Under the pieces are notes generated by a model that had not been told where the DNA came from, did not search any database, and was given only the letters and a program-made list of their open reading frames with translations. A stretch of DNA of 47,812 nt from a virus. The position numbers were made by a program, and so were the translations under genes. Below, piece by piece: positions 7,742 to 45,379 of the stretch (the first letter of the stretch is position 1; each line of letters opens with the position of its first letter). The stretch covers positions 1 through 47,812 of the IMG/VR virus record IMGVR_UViG_3300009285_000958. One strand, written 5' to 3'.

Positions 7742-7961
7742 TGGACTTCTCCTTCAAAAGCGTTTGGGATCGCGCGCAAACTGCGCCCGGCAGAAATGCC
7801 GGGCAGTGTTCTCGTATTGCGCTTTTGCTCCGAATGGAGCCGCCCTCGCGCCGACCGGCCGAGGTGATGTCGGGCTGTTACCCCGCCCGCACGGGTTACA
7901 GAAACTTCGCTTGCGACCCGGAGCGTATCACACTTCCGGGCCTTGACGCAAGCGCTTTATT
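7742..7961 (-). promoter_or_regulatory. Noncoding leader of the capsid genes with a strong hairpin
   Basis: A 220-base gap between the scaffold-associated gene and the decoration gene, without a credible ORF. GCCCGGC (7785-7791) and GCCGGGC (7798-7804) form a perfect 7-bp stem with a six-base loop, 43 bases before the decoration start. No T-run follows, so an mRNA-processing or stabilising hairpin is more likely than a terminator. I found no convincing -35/-10 pair. Confidence 0.5.
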
Positions 7962-24936: not shown

Positions 24937-25011
24937 TGGTTGCGCCTGGTGGACTCGCACCACCGACCTCAAGCTTATGGGGCTTGCGAGCTGCTTCTGC
25001 TCCAAGGCGCG
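24937..25011 (-). tRNA. tRNA-Met (anticodon CAT), CCA encoded
   Basis: A 75-base cloverleaf folds on the minus strand. The acceptor has CGCGCCT against AGGCGCA with a C1-A72 mismatch; the D arm is GAGC/GCTC with a 7-base loop lacking the usual GG. The anticodon arm is CAAGC/GCTTG with loop CCCATAA. The T arm is GGTGG/CCACC with loop TGCGAGT, then ACCA. C1-A72 is a hallmark of initiator tRNA, but the three G-C pairs of true tRNA-fMet are absent from the anticodon stem. C33 replaces the near-universal T33 and the T-loop is not TTC. The CAT anticodon could also be an Ile2-type after lysidine modification. Confidence 0.85.
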
Positions 25012-36712: not shown

Positions 36713-36895
36713 ATGCTGTTCGTGGTCATACAGGAACCGAAGGCGAAGTATCGGCACGCCTACTGCATCAACTTGAATTTTGTCGAGGCCGAGAAAAAGT
36801 CCGACGCGCTGAAGCAGGTTGAGCGGATAGCGGATACCGCTTTCAAGGCTCCGGCAGCATTCCCTGTCCACGCTGGCCTATGCCTCAGAACATGA
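36713..36895 (+). CDS. Small protein before C5 methyltransferase, 60 aa
   Basis: The start ATG 36713 follows GAGAGACAA, the recurring non-SD start context. LNFVEAEKKSDALKQVERIA near residue 22 recalls a small phage DNA-metabolism family. The stop overlaps the methyltransferase ATG (ATGA). No function assigned. Confidence 0.6.
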   Translation: MLFVVIQEPKAKYRHAYCINLNFVEAEKKSDALKQVERIADTAFKAPAAFPVHAGLCLRT

Positions 36896-37755
36896 ACGCA
36901 GCTTCCTTCGATAGATGCGCAGCACCGCTGGCAATCGACCTGTTCTGCGGCCTGGGCGGCTGGACTGAGGGGCTGCTTGCGGAGGGCTATCGCGTGATCG
37001 GCTTCGACATCGAGCGCCACGAATACGGCGATGCCAAATACCCGGCGCAGATGGTCATTCAGGACGTGCTGACGCTGCACGGCAAGCAGTTCAAGGATGC
37101 AGCCCTGATCGTCGCCAGTCCGCCATGCCAGGAGTTCAGCTACATGGCGATGCCTTGGTCGCTGGCGAAGCAGAAGCGGGCGGAATACCTCGACGGCACG
37201 CGGGACAGGAAAGACCTGACCGCGTTGTTCGACGCCTGTTTCCGCATTCAGCGCGAGGCAAGCGAAGCGGCCGGTAGGCATATCCCTCTAGTGGTGGAGA
37301 ACGTCCGCGGCGCCTGCGAGTGGGTCGGGCGCTCGCGCTGGAACTTCGGCAGCTTCCACTTGTGGGGCGACGTGCCGGCATTGATGCCAGCCACTGTGCG
37401 GCGCCAAGTAATGAAGGCTGGTATTACTCACCGCCATGACGGCAGCACCAATTTCCACGGCAGCAAAGTGCCAGGTTTTCGCTTCGACGGCAGCGGCAAG
37501 TCGTTCCAGACCGCGAGCGTGGAAGGCTTAAAAGGAATCCCGCATCGCCCGACTGGACATTGGACAAATTCCGAAGAAAACGGCTCGAAGAACGGTGGTG
37601 ACTGGTTCGGCAGCGGCGACAACTGTTCTCTACAGCGCCGCGCCAGCAGCAAAGGATCGGCCAGGAAGAGGGCATCCGCACTCATCGCCAAAATCCCGCT
37701 GCTGTTGTCGCAGCACATTGCGCGGTCGTGGTATCCGCTTGGTGCGCCTCGATGA
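36892..37755 (+). CDS. DNA (cytosine-5) methyltransferase, 287 aa
   Basis: Motif I AIDLFCGLGGWTEGL near residue 16, motif IV ASPPCQEFSYM near 75 with the catalytic Cys, motif VI LVVENVRGA near 131, and KIPLLLSQHIARSW (motif X) near 268 identify a phage C5-MTase. The region between VI and X is short, so target recognition is compact. The start is ATG 36892 in an ATGA overlap. Orphan (no cognate endonuclease nearby), so self-protection against host restriction is the likely role. Confidence 0.9.
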   Translation: MNAASFDRCAAPLAIDLFCGLGGWTEGLLAEGYRVIGFDIERHEYGDAKYPAQMVIQDVLTLHGKQFKDAALIVASPPCQEFSYMAMPWSLAKQKRAEYLDGTRDRKDLTALFDACFRIQREASEAAGRHIPLVVENVRGACEWVGRSRWNFGSFHLWGDVPALMPATVRRQVMKAGITHRHDGSTNFHGSKVPGFRFDGSGKSFQTASVEGLKGIPHRPTGHWTNSEENGSKNGGDWFGSGDNCSLQRRASSKGSARKRASALIAKIPLLLSQHIARSWYPLGAPR

Positions 37756-37940
37756 CTGACTGGACCGCAGAGTATCGGACGCTGATCGAGGACTGCCGCA
37801 AGCGCGAGCAGCACTTGTCAGCGTGGGGCGCGGACTTTCTCGACTCCATCGAATCGCGCCTTGACGACAAAAAGCCGCTCACGCCCAAGCAGGTTGAGTG
37901 CTTAGACGGAATTTGGGAACGGGCCACGAAGAAAGGATGA
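37752..37940 (+). CDS. Small charged protein, 62 aa
   Basis: ATG 37752 in an ATGA overlap; MTDWTAEYRTLIEDCRKREQ, then AWGADFLDSIESRLDDKKPL and PKQVECLDGIWERATKKG, a compact helical protein of the kind found repeatedly in phage early operons. Function unknown. Confidence 0.6.
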   Translation: MTDWTAEYRTLIEDCRKREQHLSAWGADFLDSIESRLDDKKPLTPKQVECLDGIWERATKKG

Positions 37941-38119
37941 CCATGAAACCGAAGGCATCGAGCACGGACCGAGCGAAGGCTGAACTCTGCAAGTGCGGAA
38001 AGAATCCCGCTACTCCGCAGCCGCATCGGTGCCCATATCAATACGAGATTAACGACGACGCGAGTGAATCTTGCAACTGCTGCGGCGAATGCTCTTACGA
38101 ATGCGCGATGGATACATGA
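37937..38119 (+). CDS. Cys-rich zinc-binding protein, 60 aa
   Basis: CKCGKNPATPQPHRCPY and SCNCCGECSYECAMD provide eight cysteines and a His (residues about 18-58), ending in the ECAMD pattern common to a family of tiny phage zinc proteins. ATGA-coupled on both sides. Function unknown. Confidence 0.7.
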   Translation: MTMKPKASSTDRAKAELCKCGKNPATPQPHRCPYQYEINDDASESCNCCGECSYECAMDT

Positions 38120-38295
38120 ACGCCACCAACAGCCAGAGCAGCAAGGCAAAGGTGCTGAAGAAGTTCCCGGCAGCGTATTACTCAAAGAACCCTGTGACCG
38201 AGCAGCACGTCATTTTCAGGGGCGCACGGGGCACCGTAATGGCTACCTCTTGGATTGGAGCTGTAGACGCATGGAAAGAAGCCGCGAGGAGATAG
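38116..38295 (+). CDS. Small early protein, 59 aa
   Basis: ATG 38116 overlaps the previous stop (ATGA). Basic N-terminus (SQSSKAKVLKKFPAAYYSKN), then beta-rich TEQHVIFRGARGTVMATSWI. Ends with WIGAVDAWKEAARR. No family recognised. Confidence 0.55.
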   Translation: MNATNSQSSKAKVLKKFPAAYYSKNPVTEQHVIFRGARGTVMATSWIGAVDAWKEAARR

Positions 38296-38297
38296 AC

Positions 38298-39278
38298 ATG
38301 ACCGCACGCACCGATGAACAGGAAGATGCCGCCAGGATGCGCGCCGGGTTCGGCGAAGCACTGGCATTGACGGAGGAAGCAATGACCCTAGACCGGAATA
38401 CGCTGCTTGAGTCGGCGAAGAAGTACCGCAAGAAGCCTATAGTGATCGAGGCTTTATGCTGGACTGGAACGAATTTACGCGAAGTCATCGACTTCACCGG
38501 GCTGCACCCATCCGCAAACAAGTGGACGTGGGAGGAATATGAAGCCGTGGTAGCGAAAGACGGTTTCAAGATATTCACGCTCGAAGGCGCACACTTGGTT
38601 TCAGTTGGTGATTACGTCATCCGAGGCGTAAAGGGCGAGTTCTACGCTTGCAAGCCAGACATCTTCGCTATGACCTATGAGAACGCCCTCGCCGCGCAGC
38701 AGCCGGAGAGCAACAGGGATGCGGTGCTGGAGACTAACGCTTTTGCGCTATCTGGCGCGTATTGGCGGCTAGAGAAATACGGATTTGTTTGCAGCCACAA
38801 TGCCGATGATCCTGAGCACGAAGCGGAAGCGGATCACTGGCGAGATATTGCGAATCAGGCGTCGGAAATAATCCGCGCCTTCAAGAACGCGGACGGGCAG
38901 GTTACATCCACACGACTAGGGGATAAGCCTAGAAGTCGGACTTCCGAGTGGATCGGGGGCCGAGCCTGTTCCGCCCGCACCAGATGCCGCAGAGTTGTCG
39001 CAGGTTGCCGAAAGCACGATTGGGGCTATATCGGCTACAGCTTCGGCCCCCGGAAGCGAACCTGCGGCAGCGGCAACTCCCATGCCAATACATCGGGTTC
39101 CAGGGGATGGTTCCGTTCTCTGGCCTGCGCGGACCTCGGAAGCTTCTCCGAAGAGCAGCGAGGATTTGTGGGCGGCATTCGTAGAACAGGTCAGGATCGA
39201 AGATGGTCTGAACAATGCGCCAGTAAACTTTCTTGGAGGCGTCGAACGTTACAAGAACATCTTCCTGCGTATCGCTGA
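38298..39278 (+). CDS. PGDYG-like protein, probable frameshift in 3' third, 326 aa as read
   Basis: From ATG 38298 (GAGGAGATAGAC upstream). KYRKKPIVIEALCWTGTNLR, FKIFTLEGAHLVSVGDYVIR and GVKGEFYACKPDIFAMTYEN (residues about 38-137) match the PGDYG-like domain of phage proteins. After residue about 207 the reading frame turns Arg/Ser-rich and unnatural, while the +1 frame from 38920 is protein-like and ends at 39300. A single extra G in the GGGG at 38919-38922 would account for this; total length 1003 nt is one base over a multiple of three. Confidence 0.65.
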   Translation: MTARTDEQEDAARMRAGFGEALALTEEAMTLDRNTLLESAKKYRKKPIVIEALCWTGTNLREVIDFTGLHPSANKWTWEEYEAVVAKDGFKIFTLEGAHLVSVGDYVIRGVKGEFYACKPDIFAMTYENALAAQQPESNRDAVLETNAFALSGAYWRLEKYGFVCSHNADDPEHEAEADHWRDIANQASEIIRAFKNADGQVTSTRLGDKPRSRTSEWIGGRACSARTRCRRVVAGCRKHDWGYIGYSFGPRKRTCGSGNSHANTSGSRGWFRSLACADLGSFSEEQRGFVGGIRRTGQDRRWSEQCASKLSWRRRTLQEHLPAYR

Positions 39279-39300
39279 GAGGCTGAGGAAAGACAAATGA
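38995..39300 (+). CDS. Downstream frame of the PGDYG-like gene, about 101 aa
   Basis: Open in frame from 38920 after a TAG, with the first ordinary start TTG 38995. PMPIHRVPGDGSVLWPARTS near residue 28 and SEDLWAAFVEQVRIEDGLNN near 54, then GGVERYKNIFLRIAERLRK, are clearly coding. Its Ala/Pro-rich start looks like an inter-domain linker, supporting the view that it is the C-terminal domain of the preceding gene. It is ATGA-coupled to the next gene. Confidence 0.6.
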   Translation: MSQVAESTIGAISATASAPGSEPAAAATPMPIHRVPGDGSVLWPARTSEASPKSSEDLWAAFVEQVRIEDGLNNAPVNFLGGVERYKNIFLRIAERLRKDK

Positions 39301-39521
39301 TCTGGCGTAGCCGATTCGACCTTTGGTATCGGGTCAAGGGAAAGCCATTGCGCGAGATATTTTGGTGCTTGGTCGAAGCGCCCGACTCGGAAACCGCCAT
39401 CGCGAAAGCGCAAGCATTCGCTGAACACAACGGCAGGATGGACTTAAAACTGCTCTGCGTCGAGCATCGCCAAACCGGGAGTGTGCGGTTCCCGCAAAAA
39501 CTACCAGTGAGGATCGAATGA
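39297..39521 (+). CDS. Hypothetical early protein, 74 aa
   Basis: ATG 39297 overlaps the previous stop; the context GGAAAGACAAATG is the recurring start pattern. YRVKGKPLREIFWCLVEAPD near residue 11 and SETAIAKAQAFAEHNG suggest a small alpha/beta protein. No family. Confidence 0.55.
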   Translation: MIWRSRFDLWYRVKGKPLREIFWCLVEAPDSETAIAKAQAFAEHNGRMDLKLLCVEHRQTGSVRFPQKLPVRIE

Positions 39522-40042
39522 CCGAACAGACCAGTGATAAGAAGTGCTTATACTGCGGCGAGTCACACGACGTTGACATAAGTTGCCAGCAGATGTTCGC
39601 TGCTCATGCAAGCCCGTTCGTGCGTCTGAATCAGACAAACCCTACGCCTCGGCCCTCACCACCAACCAGCGGAGAAACGCCAAGACCAGGAAAGCCCCTG
39701 CCGCAGTGGGTTACATCATGGCCAGATTGGTTCGGTATCTTCGGCAACGTGACGGTCATTCCGAAAGAGGACTACGACCGACTTGAGCGCGAGCTTGCTG
39801 AGGCGAATAAGCGCGCAGAAATATGGGCAGCGAGAGCCGCTGGTAATGAGATTGCGCAGCTGTCCGCAACAGATGCCGCAGACGCTCGCCGGTATCATTT
39901 TCTGCAACGGATTACTTGTGGCAATACGGCTGGCGGCAAAGGCTCAGATAAGGAATGCTACCTATCCCTGAATCCAAGCGACATGGATGCAGCGATTGAC
40001 TCAAATCTGAACACCTCGACTGACGACGGGAGCAAGACGTGA
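39518..40042 (+). CDS. Modular early protein with CxxC N-terminus, 174 aa
   Basis: CLYCGESHDVDISC (residues 10-23) is a probable zinc knuckle. A Pro-rich linker, then a RLERELAEANKRAEIWAARA helix and a final ARRYHFLQRITCGNTAGG segment follow. The LERELAEAN block also appears (as LERELAGAN) in the 43.9-kb protein, both after Pro/Ser-rich PTSGETPR/PASGDTPR linkers, implying shared modules. Function unknown. Confidence 0.6.
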   Translation: MTEQTSDKKCLYCGESHDVDISCQQMFAAHASPFVRLNQTNPTPRPSPPTSGETPRPGKPLPQWVTSWPDWFGIFGNVTVIPKEDYDRLERELAEANKRAEIWAARAAGNEIAQLSATDAADARRYHFLQRITCGNTAGGKGSDKECYLSLNPSDMDAAIDSNLNTSTDDGSKT

Positions 40043-40524
40043 GGACCATTTCACTTTGGCAACCGTGGGCGACCGCCATTGCAATCGGCTTGAAGTCCAT
40101 CGAGACACGGCACTGGTGCCCGAAGTATCGCGGGCCGCTGGCAATCCACGCCGCGCGTAGATGGGACTCTAGCCAGAAGGAATTTGCCATGGTGGAGCGT
40201 GGCCTGGGGCGGCTACCCGCTCGCCTGCCATTCGGCGCGGTGATCGCCGTGTGCGACCTGGTGGACGTGCGGCCCGCGGCAGAGCTTGTCCTGAGCATCA
40301 AGCCCATCGAGAAGCTGTACGGCAACTACACCGCCGGCCGCTTTGGCTGGCTGCTGGAGAACGTAGTCGAATTGTCGGAGCCAGTGCCGTTCAAGGGCCA
40401 TCAGAGTTTCTTCGACGTGCCGGACGACCTGCTGCCGTTGACGGCGGGCCAGCAGTACGACAACCGAGCGAAGTACGGTCACTTCGGCCAGGGCAGCGGC
40501 GACGGCGACCTGTTCGGATCGTGA
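40039..40524 (+). CDS. ASCH-domain protein, 161 aa
   Basis: GTG 40039 in a GTGA overlap. SLWQPWATAIAIGLKSIETR (residues 5-24), RGPLAIHAARRWD near 31, and GAVIAVCDLVDVRPA near 66 match the ASCH fold, an RNA/modified-nucleoside-binding beta barrel related to PUA and YTH-like readers. In phage genomes such proteins might read or process modified bases. Here it lies between the C5-MTase and helicase-MTase genes. Confidence 0.75.
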   Translation: MRTISLWQPWATAIAIGLKSIETRHWCPKYRGPLAIHAARRWDSSQKEFAMVERGLGRLPARLPFGAVIAVCDLVDVRPAAELVLSIKPIEKLYGNYTAGRFGWLLENVVELSEPVPFKGHQSFFDVPDDLLPLTAGQQYDNRAKYGHFGQGSGDGDLFGS

Positions 40525-40634
40525 TGAACAGACCTCTAGATAGAACTAACCAGCGCATCGACGACATCTACAGGGTCACGCGCAATCACATCTATCAAAT
40601 CCACGCGGGCAACAACTGGAAGCGCACACCATGA
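40524..40634 (+). CDS. Micro-ORF, 36 aa
   Basis: ATG 40524 in a TGATG junction with the ASCH stop; the stop overlaps the next start (ATGA). The peptide (MNRPLDRTNQRIDDIYRVTR, then NHIYQIHAGNN) is basic. Double coupling is the evidence. Confidence 0.5.
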   Translation: MNRPLDRTNQRIDDIYRVTRNHIYQIHAGNNWKRTP

Positions 40635-41077
40635 GCGATGCCGACAAAACCGCAAACGAGTTGGTCGAGAATGCCGCGAACGAACTTGATCAATTGTTCC
40701 GGCAGCGCCACATGCACATATACGTGGTGCATTTGCTCAATAAGTTGGTCAGCGAAACGAGCGGCCTTCTGAAGCATCGCACGGAAGCCGAGCCGAGCGA
40801 AGCGCAGGTGGAAGTGAAGGATCGCATCCTTGCCGAGCGCGACAAGGGAAACATTGCGGTGTTGGGCATCGAGGGCCTGATGACCATGCCCATCGAGGAG
40901 TTCGTAAAGCAGCCGGTAGACGGGATGCTCTACGACCTGAACCGTGGCGATGAGGTCAGCCTTACTTTCATTCACGAGCGCAAATGGGTAAACGATTTCG
41001 CCGTCGCACTGGTGATCCGAAAGCTGGTGGAGCAACGTGATGCTTCGCTCTCTGTGAACAAACAGCAAGACAAATGA
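40631..41077 (+). CDS. Hypothetical protein before helicase-MTase, 148 aa
   Basis: Helical, acidic N-terminus (ADKTANELVENAANELDQLF), then LNKLVSETSGLLKHRTEAEP and a mixed IPA-type IEGLMTMPIEEFVKQPVDGM near 80. ATGA at both ends. The spot directly before the fusion protein suggests a partner subunit. No family recognised. Confidence 0.6.
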   Translation: MSDADKTANELVENAANELDQLFRQRHMHIYVVHLLNKLVSETSGLLKHRTEAEPSEAQVEVKDRILAERDKGNIAVLGIEGLMTMPIEEFVKQPVDGMLYDLNRGDEVSLTFIHERKWVNDFAVALVIRKLVEQRDASLSVNKQQDK

Positions 41078-43266
41078 AGCCCTACGAAGCGTTCCTTGCC
41101 CGCAAGGCGATAACCGACCCGGCTACCGGGCTGGCGATCGTCCCTGCACTGAACGCGGCCCTGTTCGACTTCCAGCGAGACATTACCGCCTGGGCGTTGC
41201 GCAGGGGCCGTGCAGCCGTGTTCGCCGACTGCGGCATGGGTAAGACCCCGATACAGCTTGAATGGGCTAGGCACGTACCTGGCAACGTCCTGATCTTGGC
41301 CCCGCTTGCGGTATCGGCGCAGACAGTGCGCGAGGGTAAGAAGTTCGGCATCACGGTCAGGCAGGCCCGCAAGCAGGCTGACGTGAAACCCGGCATCACG
41401 GTAGCGAACTACGAAATGCTTGAGCACTTCGACCCGGCCTACTTCGCCGGGATCGTGCTGGACGAATCCAGCATCCTCAAGTCCTACGATGGCAAGACGC
41501 GCACGGCGATCATTGACGCCTTCGCGCAAACGCCGTTCAAGCTCGCTTGCACCGCTACGCCTGCACCTAACGACTACATGGAGCTAGGCAACCACGCCGA
41601 GTTCCTAGGCGTAATGACCCGCGTCGAAATGCTGTCCATGTTCTTCGTCCACGATGGCGGGGAAACGCAACAATGGCGGCTGAAGGGGCACGCGGAGTCC
41701 GAGTTCTGGAAGTGGCTCGCATCCTGGGCCGTGTGTATCCGCAAGCCCTCAGACCTTGGATACCCTGATGGCGACTTCACGCTGCCGGAACTGGTCATGC
41801 ACGAAATAGTCGTCAAGGTGGATACGCCGACCGATGGTTTCCTTTTCCCGGTTGAAGCCAAGACGCTGCAAGAGCGCCTGCACAGCCGCCGCGACACGAT
41901 AGCCGAGCGCGTAGCCGATGCCGCTGCGGTAGCCAATGCGACGGACGAACCTTTCCTCGTATGGTGCAACCTGAACGACGAAAGCGCGCAGCTAAAAGCC
42001 GCGATCAATGGTGCGATCGAGGTCAAGGGAGCAGACACTAACGAGCACAAGGAAAAGGCCATGCTCGGATTCACTGCCGGCGACGTGCGCTGTCTCGTTA
42101 CAAAGCCTTCCATCGCCGGATTCGGGATGAATTGGCAGCACTGCAACAACATGGCATTCGTCGGCCTCTCAGATTCCTATGAGCAGTTCTACCAAGCCGT
42201 GCGCCGCTGCTGGCGGTTCGGCCAGAAGAAACCCGTCAACGTCTACGTCATCACCGCAGAAACGGAAGGTGCCGTAGTCGCCAACATCAAACGCAAAGAG
42301 GCTGACGCCTTGAAAATGGTCGAGAACATGGTGGAGCACATGAAAGACCTGAACGCCGAAGCCGTGCGCGGTATGCGCAGAGAGAAAGCCGGATATGCCC
42401 GCGAGATCGCTACGGGGAACGGCTGGACGCTCAACCTTGCCGATTGCGTCGAGGTCGCGCAGGAACTTCCAGAGAACAGCCTGCACTACACGATCTACTC
42501 GCCGCCGTTCGCAAGCCTCTACACCTATTCAAACAGCGACCGCGACATGGGGAACTGCAAGGATGGCGACGAGTTCATGGGGCAGTACAAATTCCTGATC
42601 CGCGAACTGTACCGCGCCACCATGCCTGGGCGCCTTGTTTCCTTCCACTGCATGAATCTTCCATCCTCCAAGGTGCGCGATGGCGTGATCGGCCTGAAGG
42701 ACTTTCGCGGCCAGTTGATCGCGGCGCATGAGGCCGAGGGCTGGATCTTCCATAGCGAAGTCTGCATCTGGAAAGACCCGGTTACGGCGATGCAGCGCAC
42801 GAAGGCGCTTGGCCTCTTGTGGAAGCAGATCAAGAAGGACTCCTGCATGAGCAGGCAGGGAATACCGGACTACCTAGTGACGATGCGCAAGCCCGGAACG
42901 AACCCGGAGAACGTCAGCCACACGGCGACGGATTTCCCGGTCAAGCTTTGGCAGAACTATGCATCGCCGGTCTGGATGGACATAAACCCGTCCGACACCC
43001 TGAGCTACAGAGAGGCCCGCGAGAACGACGACGAACGCCATATCTGCGCCCTACAGCTTCAGGTGATCGAGCGCGGCATCAAACTGTGGAGCAATCCGGG
43101 GGATACCGTTTTCAGCCCGTTCGCCGGCATCGGTTCAGAGGGCTACATGGCGCTCAAGATGGGGCGCAAGTTTCTCGGGGCCGAACTGAAACGCAGCTAT
43201 TGGGAGCAGGCTTGCAAGAACTTGAAGCAGGCCAAGCATGAGCAAGACGGCCTCTTTGCCGCATGA
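41074..43266 (+). CDS. SNF2-like helicase fused to N6/N4 DNA methyltransferase, 730 aa
   Basis: Helicase: Walker A ADCGMGKTPIQLEWA near residue 51, DESS box near 130, TATPAPND (motif III) near 154, NWQHCNNMAFVGLSDSYEQF near 351 and QAVRRCWRFGQ (motif VI) near 371. MTase: motif IV YSPPFASLYTY near 473 and the AdoMet region FSPFAGIGSEGYMALKMGRK near 689-708, GAELKRSYWEQA. Domains are helicase (1-420) then MTase (440-730). Start context AAGACAAATG, ATGA overlap. A translocating modification enzyme for phage self-protection is the best guess; no endonuclease or specificity subunit is encoded near it. Confidence 0.85.
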   Translation: MKPYEAFLARKAITDPATGLAIVPALNAALFDFQRDITAWALRRGRAAVFADCGMGKTPIQLEWARHVPGNVLILAPLAVSAQTVREGKKFGITVRQARKQADVKPGITVANYEMLEHFDPAYFAGIVLDESSILKSYDGKTRTAIIDAFAQTPFKLACTATPAPNDYMELGNHAEFLGVMTRVEMLSMFFVHDGGETQQWRLKGHAESEFWKWLASWAVCIRKPSDLGYPDGDFTLPELVMHEIVVKVDTPTDGFLFPVEAKTLQERLHSRRDTIAERVADAAAVANATDEPFLVWCNLNDESAQLKAAINGAIEVKGADTNEHKEKAMLGFTAGDVRCLVTKPSIAGFGMNWQHCNNMAFVGLSDSYEQFYQAVRRCWRFGQKKPVNVYVITAETEGAVVANIKRKEADALKMVENMVEHMKDLNAEAVRGMRREKAGYAREIATGNGWTLNLADCVEVAQELPENSLHYTIYSPPFASLYTYSNSDRDMGNCKDGDEFMGQYKFLIRELYRATMPGRLVSFHCMNLPSSKVRDGVIGLKDFRGQLIAAHEAEGWIFHSEVCIWKDPVTAMQRTKALGLLWKQIKKDSCMSRQGIPDYLVTMRKPGTNPENVSHTATDFPVKLWQNYASPVWMDINPSDTLSYREARENDDERHICALQLQVIERGIKLWSNPGDTVFSPFAGIGSEGYMALKMGRKFLGAELKRSYWEQACKNLKQAKHEQDGLFAA

Positions 43267-43303
43267 CCTCTAGCTGTTTACCTCAACCGAGACAAGGCAA
43301 ATG
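43261..43303 (+). repeat. Direct repeat copy A around stop and start codons
   Basis: A 43-base sequence from the last Ala codon of the helicase-MTase (GCATGACCTCTAGCTGTTTA...) to the next ATG. Copy B at 45220-45262 differs at three positions. Contains GAGACAAGGCAAATG, the start context. Confidence 0.9.
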
Positions 43304-43915
43304 ATTTGCGGCGAAAGCATAAGGGTAGTGCATCCGTTGTTCCCAACGGAGGGAGGCGGTTCGACTCCGACCTCGCCGCTCCAGTTTCATTTTGGCCGTA
43401 TCTCCGCAGAATTAGCAGCCACACTAAACTCAGAATGGCATAGCGTGTTGCCTTATATTCCAATTTTCCACATTGAAATTGCATTCGCCGCAATCTTTTC
43501 CAATGTGTTTTATGCGGTAGCAATGTTTGGAAGGCCGGTGGCTAGGACAATTTGTGATTCTGGAATTTTGGAACTTCGGCGCATGGCTATCGCTCCTGAC
43601 GCTCCAAAAAACACCGCCTCAAGAATGATTGCATGGATGGTTAAGGAGGTAGCAAAGATGCGGCCAGATATTCGCAAACTTATTTCTTACCAGGACACAT
43701 CAATTCATAGAGGAACGATCTATAAGGCCCAAGGTTGGATTCCAGTTGATATGTCATCCAGTCCGGTGAATTGGGGTGGTGCAGCGCAAACCAAGACCCC
43801 GCCTAGCAGAACAAGAAACGGGAAGGTTCTTAAAGCGCCCAAGATTCGATGGGAAAGAACACTACGCCACTCTGCCGCAGAGCAACCAGACCGAACAAGG
43901 CTGAGAGCATGCTGA
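43301..43915 (+). CDS. GNAT-fold Mom-like protein, 204 aa
   Basis: Residues about 44-58 (LNSEWHSVLPYIP) and 88-131 (ILELRRMAIAPDAPKNTASR, then LISYQDTSIHRGTIYKAQGW) match a phage GNAT-like family similar to Mu Mom (L-x-R-x-x-x-APD-x-PKN). Mom-type enzymes alter adenine in DNA. The ATG 43301 lies in repeat copy A; codons 3-28 are the tRNA-like element read through, so the natural N-terminus probably begins after it. This gene is distinctly AT-richer than its neighbours, a sign of recent acquisition. The last about 20 residues overlap the next gene. Confidence 0.72.
   Translation: MICGESIRVVHPLFPTEGGGSTPTSPLQFHFGRISAELAATLNSEWHSVLPYIPIFHIEIAFAAIFSNVFYAVAMFGRPVARTICDSGILELRRMAIAPDAPKNTASRMIAWMVKEVAKMRPDIRKLISYQDTSIHRGTIYKAQGWIPVDMSSSPVNWGGAAQTKTPPSRTRNGKVLKAPKIRWERTLRHSAAEQPDRTRLRAC
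43308..43383 (+). tRNA. Degenerate tRNA-Gly-like element, CCA encoded
   Basis: A 76-base element with a perfect acceptor (GCGGCGA/TCGCCGC), discriminator T and CCA (as in tRNA-Gly), and a D arm GCAT-AAGGGTA-GTGC containing GG. T-loop TTCGACT is normal, but the T stem needs a bulged A. The anticodon arm is TCCGT/ACGGA with an 8-base loop (TGTTCCCA), or 6 bp with a 6-base loop, instead of the standard 7. The anticodon is best read as Gly UCC/CCC. Base 8 is A, not T. It may be a pseudo-tRNA. Confidence 0.6.
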
Positions 43916-44529
43916 TTGAGGACGTCATTCGCGGACTGCTGGAGGATGAGGATTTCATTGCCGCGTTCGTGGCGCACCGTGCGCCTCGCCCCTCACTGGC
44001 AGCGCAGGAAGTGGACGAACTTCGAGCGTGGCGCGAGCATGGCAAATTATTCAGATTTGTAGCGGGGCGATTCTTTCAAGATGGTAATTGCTACATCTTC
44101 CAAGAAGATGATGCTGCGCTTCCACCCTCCCCTCCACCAGCCAGCGGAGATACGCCGAGGACGGAATATGACATTTGCAACTATCCGGCCCGTCCATGCC
44201 GTCCCACAGAGGAAAAAGAGAAAGTCTGTGCTTACGTTCAGGATTTGGAGCGCGAGCTTGCGGGGGCGAACGATCAGCGCGAGGTATCCCGCAAGATGAT
44301 CGACGGGCTGTGCGAGTTGCGCGACGAACTGAAGGCGCAGCTTAAGGCGGCGCAGGACGAAGTGTGGTGCGTATCTAACAAGACTTCGAGCCTACTGTTC
44401 AAGTCGAAGGAAATGGCTCACGCCTACATTGCGCAGTTCGGCGCGTCGATTGGCGGTGGTATGAGCATCACGAATATGCCGGTGTTAAGATTTCCTAGCG
44501 CATCGACTGACGACAGAGGAGCAGGGTGA
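43849..44529 (+). CDS. Modular helical early protein, 226 aa
   Basis: The start is either ATG 43849 (MGKNTTPLCRR) or ATG 43909 (MLIEDVIRGLLEDEDFIAAF, overlapping the GNAT stop). The body has FRFVAGRFFQDGNCYIFQED near residue 67 (from 43849), a PASGDTPRTEYD linker, a LERELAGANDQREVSRKMID coiled coil and a GGGMSITNMPVLRFP end. Shares the LERELAxAN module with the 39.5-kb protein. Function unknown. Confidence 0.6.
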   Translation: MGKNTTPLCRRATRPNKAESMLIEDVIRGLLEDEDFIAAFVAHRAPRPSLAAQEVDELRAWREHGKLFRFVAGRFFQDGNCYIFQEDDAALPPSPPPASGDTPRTEYDICNYPARPCRPTEEKEKVCAYVQDLERELAGANDQREVSRKMIDGLCELRDELKAQLKAAQDEVWCVSNKTSSLLFKSKEMAHAYIAQFGASIGGGMSITNMPVLRFPSASTDDRGAG

Positions 44530-44840
44530 GCCGCCACAGCGTATCGGTCACGCACGATGGGGAAGCCACCGAACAATCCAGGCGCTTGAGCGATTTCCTG
44601 TTCAAACGATGCCCAGGCCATGTGGCAGAGTTTGCAGTGGTGGATTTCCTGCGCCGCTGTGCCGATCAGCACCGGCGGTTCCCCTGGACGAAGGCAAGCG
44701 CACTACCTGAGATTGAGCGCGCGATCGAGGCAGTGATGAACGCCACAATAGATAGGAGCAGCAAGACAAATGAGCCTCCGCATCATCCCGGTCACGCTGG
44801 AACAGGCCAACGACTTTGTGCGCCGCCTGCATCGGCATAA
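44526..44840 (+). CDS. Hypothetical early protein, 104 aa
   Basis: GTG 44526 in a GTGA overlap. Protein-like up to residue about 80 (RLSDFLFKRCPGHVAEFAVV, FLRRCADQHRRFPWTKASAL), then it overlaps the next gene by 70 bases and turns Pro-rich. No family recognised. Confidence 0.5.
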   Translation: MSRHSVSVTHDGEATEQSRRLSDFLFKRCPGHVAEFAVVDFLRRCADQHRRFPWTKASALPEIERAIEAVMNATIDRSSKTNEPPHHPGHAGTGQRLCAPPASA

Positions 44841-45225
44841 CAAGCCGGTGGTCGGCAGCAAGTTCCAGATTGGCGCGTCGAAGGGTAAGCAGCTTGTCGG
44901 GGTTGCCATCACAGGCAGGCCCGTAGCTCCGGCCCTAGACGACGGGCTCACAGTCGAGATAACGCGGGTATGTACCGACGGGACCAAGAACGCGGCCTCG
45001 ATGCTCTACGGCGCTTGTAGGAAGGCGGCGAGGGCGATGGGATATGACCGTATCTTCACTTACACGCTGCCCGAGGAAGGCGGCGCAAGCCTGCGGGCGG
45101 CAGGATTCAAACTTGACAAATCCGACGCGGGCGGCAGCGCGGCGATGTGGCACAACCGAGACGGGCGCACCGTGGAGCCGGTCGGCAATGACCTGATCGG
45201 CGGCAAGTGGCGGTGGGCCGCATGA
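44770..45225 (+). CDS. GNAT-like XF1762-family protein, 151 aa
   Basis: FVRRLHRHNKPVVGSKFQIG (residues 16-35), GRPVAPALDDGLTVEITRVC near 51, TKNAASMLYGACRKAARAMG near 73 and YTLPEEGGASLRAAGFK near 98 match the XF1762-type phage acyltransferase-like family. The fold resembles GNAT enzymes and distantly Mom. AAGACAAATG precedes it. Substrate unknown; DNA-base or tRNA acylation is possible. The stop lies in repeat copy B. Confidence 0.75.
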   Translation: MSLRIIPVTLEQANDFVRRLHRHNKPVVGSKFQIGASKGKQLVGVAITGRPVAPALDDGLTVEITRVCTDGTKNAASMLYGACRKAARAMGYDRIFTYTLPEEGGASLRAAGFKLDKSDAGGSAAMWHNRDGRTVEPVGNDLIGGKWRWAA

Positions 45226-45262
45226 CCTCTAGCTGTTTCCCTGAACCGAGACAAGACAAATG
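45220..45262 (+). repeat. Direct repeat copy B around stop and start codons
   Basis: Matches copy A at 40 of 43 positions, again spanning the GCCGCATGA end of an upstream gene to the ATG of a downstream one. Contains GAGACAAGACAAATG. Both copies lie after genes ending Ala-Ala-stop. Confidence 0.9.
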
Positions 45263-45379
45263 GCTGAAACGAGAACCGTTAAGTGCGATGGCTGCGGTGG
45301 CGACATCACCTACACCGGAACGGTAGCGGTGCGCCTAAATTATACTGGAATTCATGGACAGATTGCGAGAAATAGTTAA
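45260..45379 (+). CDS. Truncated zinc-knuckle peptide, 39 aa
   Basis: ATG 45260 in repeat copy B. TVKCDGCGGDITYTGTVAVR shows one CxxC knuckle typical of longer small phage zinc proteins, then the frame ends at TAA 45377. It looks like a truncated N-terminal part. Overlaps the next gene start by 26 bases. Confidence 0.5.
   Translation: MAETRTVKCDGCGGDITYTGTVAVRLNYTGIHGQIARNS

Follow-up and report, generated by a model that had tools for sequence, protein, structure and literature searches.

Which molecule donates the glycine-like group that the enzyme Mom, studied since phage Mu, places on DNA is an open question, and a mom locus in the virus record IMGVR_UViG_3300009285_000958 raises it again in an unexpected form. 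The Mom mark is N6-carbamoylmethyladenine, a glycinamide carried on adenine, and the added group is glycine-derived. The window analysed here is the whole of this IMG/VR record, 47,812 bases long, and contains two mom genes, mom1 and mom2, the first of which holds within its 5' end a 76-nucleotide (nt) RNA element resembling a glycine transfer RNA (tRNA-Gly). From its sequence, conservation and position, we suggest with a probability of roughly 0.55 that a dedicated glycine tRNA coupled to mom serves Mom, probably as the glycyl donor.

The element has every part of a cloverleaf: a perfect acceptor stem of seven base pairs (bp) (43308-43314/43373-43379, GCGGCGA/TCGCCGC), a D arm (43317-43331), an anticodon arm (43333-43350) that contains UUCC and whose loop is UGUUCCCA, or 6 nt if a UA pair forms, and a T arm (43355-43372) with the loop TTCGACT and a one-nt bulge at 43370, followed by U73 at 43380 and an encoded CCA at 43381-43383. 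The mom1 ATG (43301) sits 7 nt 5' of the RNA, which encodes residues 3-28; because the frame is open through the RNA and has no in-frame start codon before GTG 43445, which lies within the conserved Mom domain, the same bases encode both RNA and protein. When the window was dinucleotide-shuffled 60 times, acceptor pairing, T-loop consensus and CCA never came together. RF00005 scored the window copy at 24.1 bits, under its cut-off of 29, which eleven relatives pass, and default ARAGORN did not detect this copy, its sole match in the window being an ordinary tRNA-Met gene (24937-25011, minus strand). Relaxed ARAGORN (80%) was uninformative, with 50 matches in the window, and motif shuffles and covariance models were therefore used. 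A search of viral contigs for the exact tRNA 3' end found no copy. Conservation of the RNA in relatives rules out that it is merely a decayed tRNA preceding a truncated mom.

This conservation was established from the protein side as well as from the RNA side. Scanned as a single sequence, mom1 had no match in viral contigs; scans based on its alignment gave five weak matches in bacterial genomes and 394 viral contigs with mom1 relatives, of which 80, chosen on protein similarity, were taken. The same nested RNA lies at the same place in 52 of these 80 loci, usually with the start codon a few nt 5' of it, and is 76 nt long with one exception, a 77-nt copy (L136:3914-3990) in which an additional base within an A run breaks the frame into mom, either through a sequencing error or with mom expressed by another route. 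Conversely, when 2.9 million viral contigs were scanned with a pattern drawn from the RNA alone, there were 26 matches, 26/26 of them continuing in frame into a Mom open reading frame (ORF); the Mom cores behind them are of several types, including WHYLGG and WHYSRR, unlike mom1, and the four of these proteins that were scanned scored 40-112 bits with PF25680. Side variants also occur: two element-free loci (L126, L167) have a separate degenerate RNA copy upstream, and one subset (L131, L147, L152-L156, L158, L160, L161, L166, L170) combines a longer D loop with a 7-nt UCC anticodon loop, several of its copies having A73 instead of U73, which perhaps reflects a different host glycyl-tRNA synthetase (GlyRS).

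From a gap-free alignment of 44 distinct copies, including 5' copies fused to other Mom cores, RNAalifold recovered the cloverleaf without a supplied structure. In this alignment 98.9% of cells are paired, 12/21 pairs show double changes, all four helices covary, and compensatory cells number 155, vs 45.5 after shuffling and 6-16 after sliding; as the copies are related, cell counts are not independent events, and the shuffles and slides are guides rather than probabilities. Copies had been picked on acceptor, T and anticodon pairing, which leaves the D helix as the unbiased test, and there 4/4 pairs covary. T-stem pairing reaches 5/5 only with one 3' nucleotide bulged and 0-3/5 unbulged. Codon 1 of the element encodes Arg, Cys, Ser or Gly, yet is NGC in 45/46, and Phe at the anticodon loop is always written TTC (44/44), which indicates that the RNA, not the peptide, is constrained.

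Equally telling are the bases that specify glycine. The identity set of Escherichia coli GlyRS comprises G1-C72, C2-G71, U73, C35 and C36; all are fixed in the 44 copies of this first alignment and in nearly all copies of the 3' group described below, while the acceptor pairs 4-69 and 5-68 are free to change. Several copies are typed as tRNA-Gly(tcc) by ARAGORN, and the best-scoring match of R1, the covariance model used to scan mom2-type phages, was tRNA-Gly in each of five bacterial genomes. With canonical bacterial tRNA-Gly(UCC) the phage RNA thus shares the cloverleaf, G1-C72, C2-G71, U73, UCC and usually CCA, but it differs in its T-stem bulge, its mostly 8- or 6-nt anticodon loop and its nesting in, or overlap with, a protein gene. 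A canonical decoding tRNA has an anticodon loop of 7 nt and a 5-bp T-stem free of bulges; the window copy and most others depart from both, and the RNA is therefore not classed as one. The bulge falls in the region that binds EF-Tu, and because of this and the 8- or 6-nt loop the RNA looks chargeable but probably poor in translation. The same features make it highly unlikely that an ordinary phage tRNA-Gly(UCC), supplying translation, overlaps mom by chance: tRNA genes are indeed frequent in phages, the UCC loop is of regular 7-nt size in a subset, and several copies score above tRNA cut-offs, but an 8- or 6-nt loop in most copies and a bulge in nearly all are both unfit for decoding, the RNA lies beside mom in 26/26 cases, and one phage, Y8A, carries two tandem copies poor in D arm.

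A second Mom subfamily carries the RNA at the opposite end of the gene. The scan of mom2-type phages with R1 brought up contig G028, on which a stand-alone RNA, followed by a terminator, begins 17 nt after the end of another kind of Mom gene (PF25680 179 bits), and among relatives of this Mom, gathered by protein only, the RNA is present at the 3' end in 17/18, the exception being a contig fragment; 3 of the 17 matches are weak, at 21-31 bits. Relative to the stop codon, these copies lie 14-17 nt or 137 nt behind it, straddle it, or fall in frame within the last codons of the gene; others are antisense. Aligned with R1 (A6 alignment), and hence biased toward the R1 structure, they show covariation in 16/21 pairs, with 61 compensatory cells vs 17 shuffled. 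A second model, R2, built from these 3' copies alone, finds the 43308 copy in the window at 72 bits (E 4.9e-19), its one other match there being the ordinary tRNA-Met at 23.8 bits; it recovers 23/23 tested embedded relatives and none in 16 helicase-only control loci. A match in the helicase control contig G049 resembles an ordinary tRNA by eye. Further arrangements include an RNA antisense over the mom 3' end (L275:628-701, minus strand) and a tandem pair of Mom genes followed by a single RNA copy (L276:2501-3747). The cultured Psychrobacter phage vB_PmaS_Y8A has two tandem tRNA-Gly-like RNAs of 68/69 nt just behind the mom stop (L279:1856-1923 and 1928-1996; phage 7786-7853 and 7858-7926), with the D arm almost absent; its genome paper lists no tRNA genes and names a different Mom, ORF69 (PMC10434257). 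In Synechococcus phage DSL-LC03 the model matches are situated far from mom, and its Mom gene overlaps an annotated type II restriction endonuclease gene (L280:675-1845). Matches in Kapi1 and Melnitz proved to be tRNA-Thr and tRNA-Trp, respectively.

The varied placement bears directly on whether the RNA might act only within its own message. The E. coli thrS gene has a tRNA-like translational operator, which resembles the present element in that a tRNA-like structure occupies the 5' portion of a message, but the Mom-linked RNA also lies 3' of the gene, within its end or antisense to it. In a comparable arrangement, a tRNA-Gly mimic at the start of the mom message, never working as a tRNA, would allow a host factor (GlyRS, RNase P or the CCA enzyme being candidates) or Mom itself to process that message or repress it. 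First-subfamily genes do have their start codon a few nt before the RNA, which translation must cross, and in Mu, Com tightly controls mom translation by way of a stem-loop (PMC6483171). Such regulation in cis is nevertheless unlikely, as second-subfamily RNAs that follow the stop, sit within the C-terminus or run antisense are unable to control initiation and the 3' copies retain the same glycine identity bases. Because placement varies to the point of being antisense or behind the stop, the RNA most likely acts in trans, as RNA, and not as a cis leader or peptide.

On the protein side, mom1 and mom2 are genuine members of the Mom family, in agreement with the sequence-only reading of this DNA, which had listed two GNAT/Mom-like proteins and recognised the enzyme of the first gene while overlooking the RNA nested in it. 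PF25680 scores are 51.7 bits for mom1 and 27.5 bits for mom2 (cut-off 27.1), and relatives score 40-179 bits; phrog_1384, 'Mom-like', gives 72.5 and 126.6 bits, respectively, and NF045478 scores mom2 at 176.9 bits. Six residues (H58, E108, R111, S124, G156 and A161 in Mu Mom numbering) are invariant in ten Mom proteins including mom1 and mom2; the mom1 counterpart of S124 is S107, the serine is kept in mom2 too, and the title of PDB entry 8bv8 calls Mu Mom S124A inactive. A mom1-subfamily profile searched against the PDB had a single significant match, Mu Mom 8bv8 (E 1.2e-10), which also ranked first when mom1 was modelled with AlphaFold and compared by structure (Foldseek E 6e-11; VIA Z 17.2, 169 residues). 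In that model the GNAT core (about residues 28-190) is of high confidence, and residues 1-15 and 18-24, from the stretch largely encoded by the RNA, have a predicted local distance difference test (pLDDT) score below 50 and are thus disordered in prediction. Mu Mom therefore has family, fold and the six invariant residues in common with mom1, but the same model finds no tRNA-like RNA in Mu; Mu regulates mom through Com, whereas no Com was recognised in the window, general profile searches having identified no com-like gene beside mom1, with no Com model run by name.

These affinities also weigh on another possibility, that Mom-like proteins act on glycyl-tRNA itself, with the RNA as bait or antidote and DNA not the target. 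Some GNAT toxins acetylate Gly-tRNA, and the GNAT fold of the protein, the known targeting of Gly-tRNA by such toxins and the constant adjacency of RNA and enzyme gene would all accord with it. It is decidedly unlikely, given that sequence and fold are nearest to Mu Mom (PF25680 up to 179 bits; 8bv8 the best match) and that S124 is invariant.

The proposal that a mom-coupled glycine tRNA serves Mom can be set out as a sequence of conditional steps. The tRNA-Gly-like RNA would probably be transcribed, excised from the transcript and then aminoacylated with glycine by host GlyRS, while the bulged T-stem and non-standard anticodon loop would probably keep it from EF-Tu and the ribosome. Mom, through its GNAT fold, would then take the glycyl group off the RNA, and the first, N6-glycyl product would, on chemical grounds, rearrange to the carbamoylmethyl form, with N6-carbamoylmethyl-(glycinamide)-adenine in phage DNA, blocking restriction enzymes, as the end product. 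Staphylococcus keeps a dedicated non-translating tRNA-Gly for cell-wall synthesis by FemXAB, a likeness in that an apparently non-translating tRNA-Gly would feed a GNAT-type enzyme; there, however, the acceptor is a lipid-linked peptide, and here it would be DNA modified by Mom, with the RNA gene attached to that of the enzyme. The Mom donor predicted in a review is an acyl-CoA, for example glycyl-CoA (PMC7824862); a private Gly-tRNA beside mom suggests glycyl-tRNA in this role. For the specific claim that Mom takes its glycine from a dedicated non-translating tRNA-Gly encoded within or beside its own gene, an aminoacyl-tRNA-dependent DNA modification, we consider the odds about even.

Several observations weigh against this proposal. 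The element is absent from 28/80 mom1-relative loci, a few of which are truncated, and it was not present in Mu and 13 further named mom phages checked with the model; as Mu and most named mom phages checked are without the RNA, Mom chemistry is not always RNA-dependent. Some RNA-less mom1 relatives (L168, L169, L178, L182, L183, L128, L145, L146, L148) keep an N-terminal peptide with PLF and, in some cases, SPLQ; this peptide may therefore be useful in itself, or it may be left over from an RNA since lost. The encoded CCA is not universal (TTCA and CTCAA occur), the T-loop consensus is missing in a few copies, C and not A follows UUCC in the window copy, and in one subset the anticodon loop is of normal length, 7 nt, partly with A73. 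Furthermore, excision of an embedded RNA destroys that mom transcript.

Beyond mom1, the surrounding genes (Table 1) had been read from sequence as a possible DNA-modification and counter-defence island of about 8.4 kb that could write and read unusual bases or blunt several host defences. The block genes do all lie on the plus strand and are mostly coupled; the C5-cytosine methyltransferase was confirmed (PF00145 33 bits, N-terminal motifs only), as was the helicase-methyltransferase fusion (phrog_16 244 bits). The remaining labels held in part: the ASCH-like protein falls under the Pfam cut-off (18.8 vs 21.2 bits) and matches phrog_3193, of unknown function; the ORF called PGDYG-like (38298-39278) exists, with its label weak, matching PHROGs of unknown function and, weakly, one nucleotide pyrophosphohydrolase; and the ORF for a Cys-rich zinc protein (37937-38119) is present, with no match in profile searches. 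DNA modification is supported by the two Mom proteins with their conserved active-site serine, the C5 methyltransferase and the helicase-methyltransferase; no role as a reader emerged for the ASCH and PGDYG proteins. PADLOC returned methyltransferase-type and weak helicase matches and nothing else.

As a conserved unit, the island is not borne out, and the block is an ordinary mosaic. Among 80 viral loci with the helicase-methyltransferase, a C5-methyltransferase relative lies nearby in 5/80 and Mom in 0/80; among the 80 mom1-relative loci, a helicase/methyltransferase relative is found within about 4 kb in 10, a C5 methyltransferase in 2 and ASCH in 0. Both counts rule out the conserved-unit reading, the homologues in relatives being scattered and unlinked, which is the outcome that reading had itself named as contradicting it. 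The helicase-methyltransferase fusion is common in phages (338 named phage records with a match), and the window's phrog_16 fusion and orphan C5 methyltransferase are neighbours of common kinds, not unusual ones. The phage collection searched for close relatives of the window contained none.

Table 1. Features of the mom locus and its surroundings in the 47,812-base window.
Feature	Coordinates	Strand	Basis or position
tRNA-Gly-like RNA, 76 nt, nested in mom1 5' end	43308..43383	+	covariance model R2, covariation
mom1, Mom-family GNAT enzyme, 204 aa	43301..43915	+	PF25680, phrog_1384, AlphaFold, Foldseek
mom2, XF1762 family, RNA at neither end	44770..45225	+	PF25680, phrog_1384, NF045478
C5-cytosine DNA methyltransferase, neighbour	36880..37755	+	PF00145, phrog_363
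ASCH-like protein, neighbour	40039..40524	+	phrog_3193
Helicase-N4/N6 methyltransferase fusion, neighbour	41074..43266	+	Helicase_C, N6_N4_Mtase, phrog_16
ORF between mom1 and mom2, function unknown	43909..44529	+	no Pfam match at cut-off
Small ORF 5' of mom2, function unknown	44526..44840	+	no Pfam match
46-nt direct repeat, left copy	43258..43303	+	helicase-methyltransferase ORF end, leader, mom1 ATG
46-nt direct repeat, right copy	45217..45262	+	mom2 end, leader, ATG of next small ORF

The mom1-mom2 segment is flanked by two copies of a 46-nt direct repeat, 93% identical and missed in the earlier reading, which may be the trace of a mom cassette insertion; the genes whose ends the two copies cover are unrelated, and a very short ORF with a CxxC motif (45260-45379) starts at the right copy. 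Together with the fusion of different Mom cores to the same RNA and the common use of tRNA genes as att sites, this repeat would allow the element to be a relic at the DNA level, left by a site where mom cassettes were once exchanged through integration or recombination. That account is barely plausible, because compensatory changes in four stems and a conserved bulge require selection on RNA structure, and the copies are not identical to host tRNA-Gly.

To our knowledge, no DNA-modification system is known to carry a tRNA, and a search of the open-access literature, with preprints and subscription papers outside its range, found neither such a system nor a link between Mom and tRNA. The element evades routine annotation, as seen in the window copy missed by default ARAGORN and in the absence of tRNAs from the Y8A genome paper (PMC10434257), and it is a rare instance in which a reading frame for a protein also houses a structured, tRNA-like gene. 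For the question of Mom's donor, the tRNA-Gly joined to mom offers a testable proposal: if it is true, glycyl-tRNA would be the missing donor for Mom base modification, and a single stretch of DNA would encode both the enzyme and the tRNA that feeds it.

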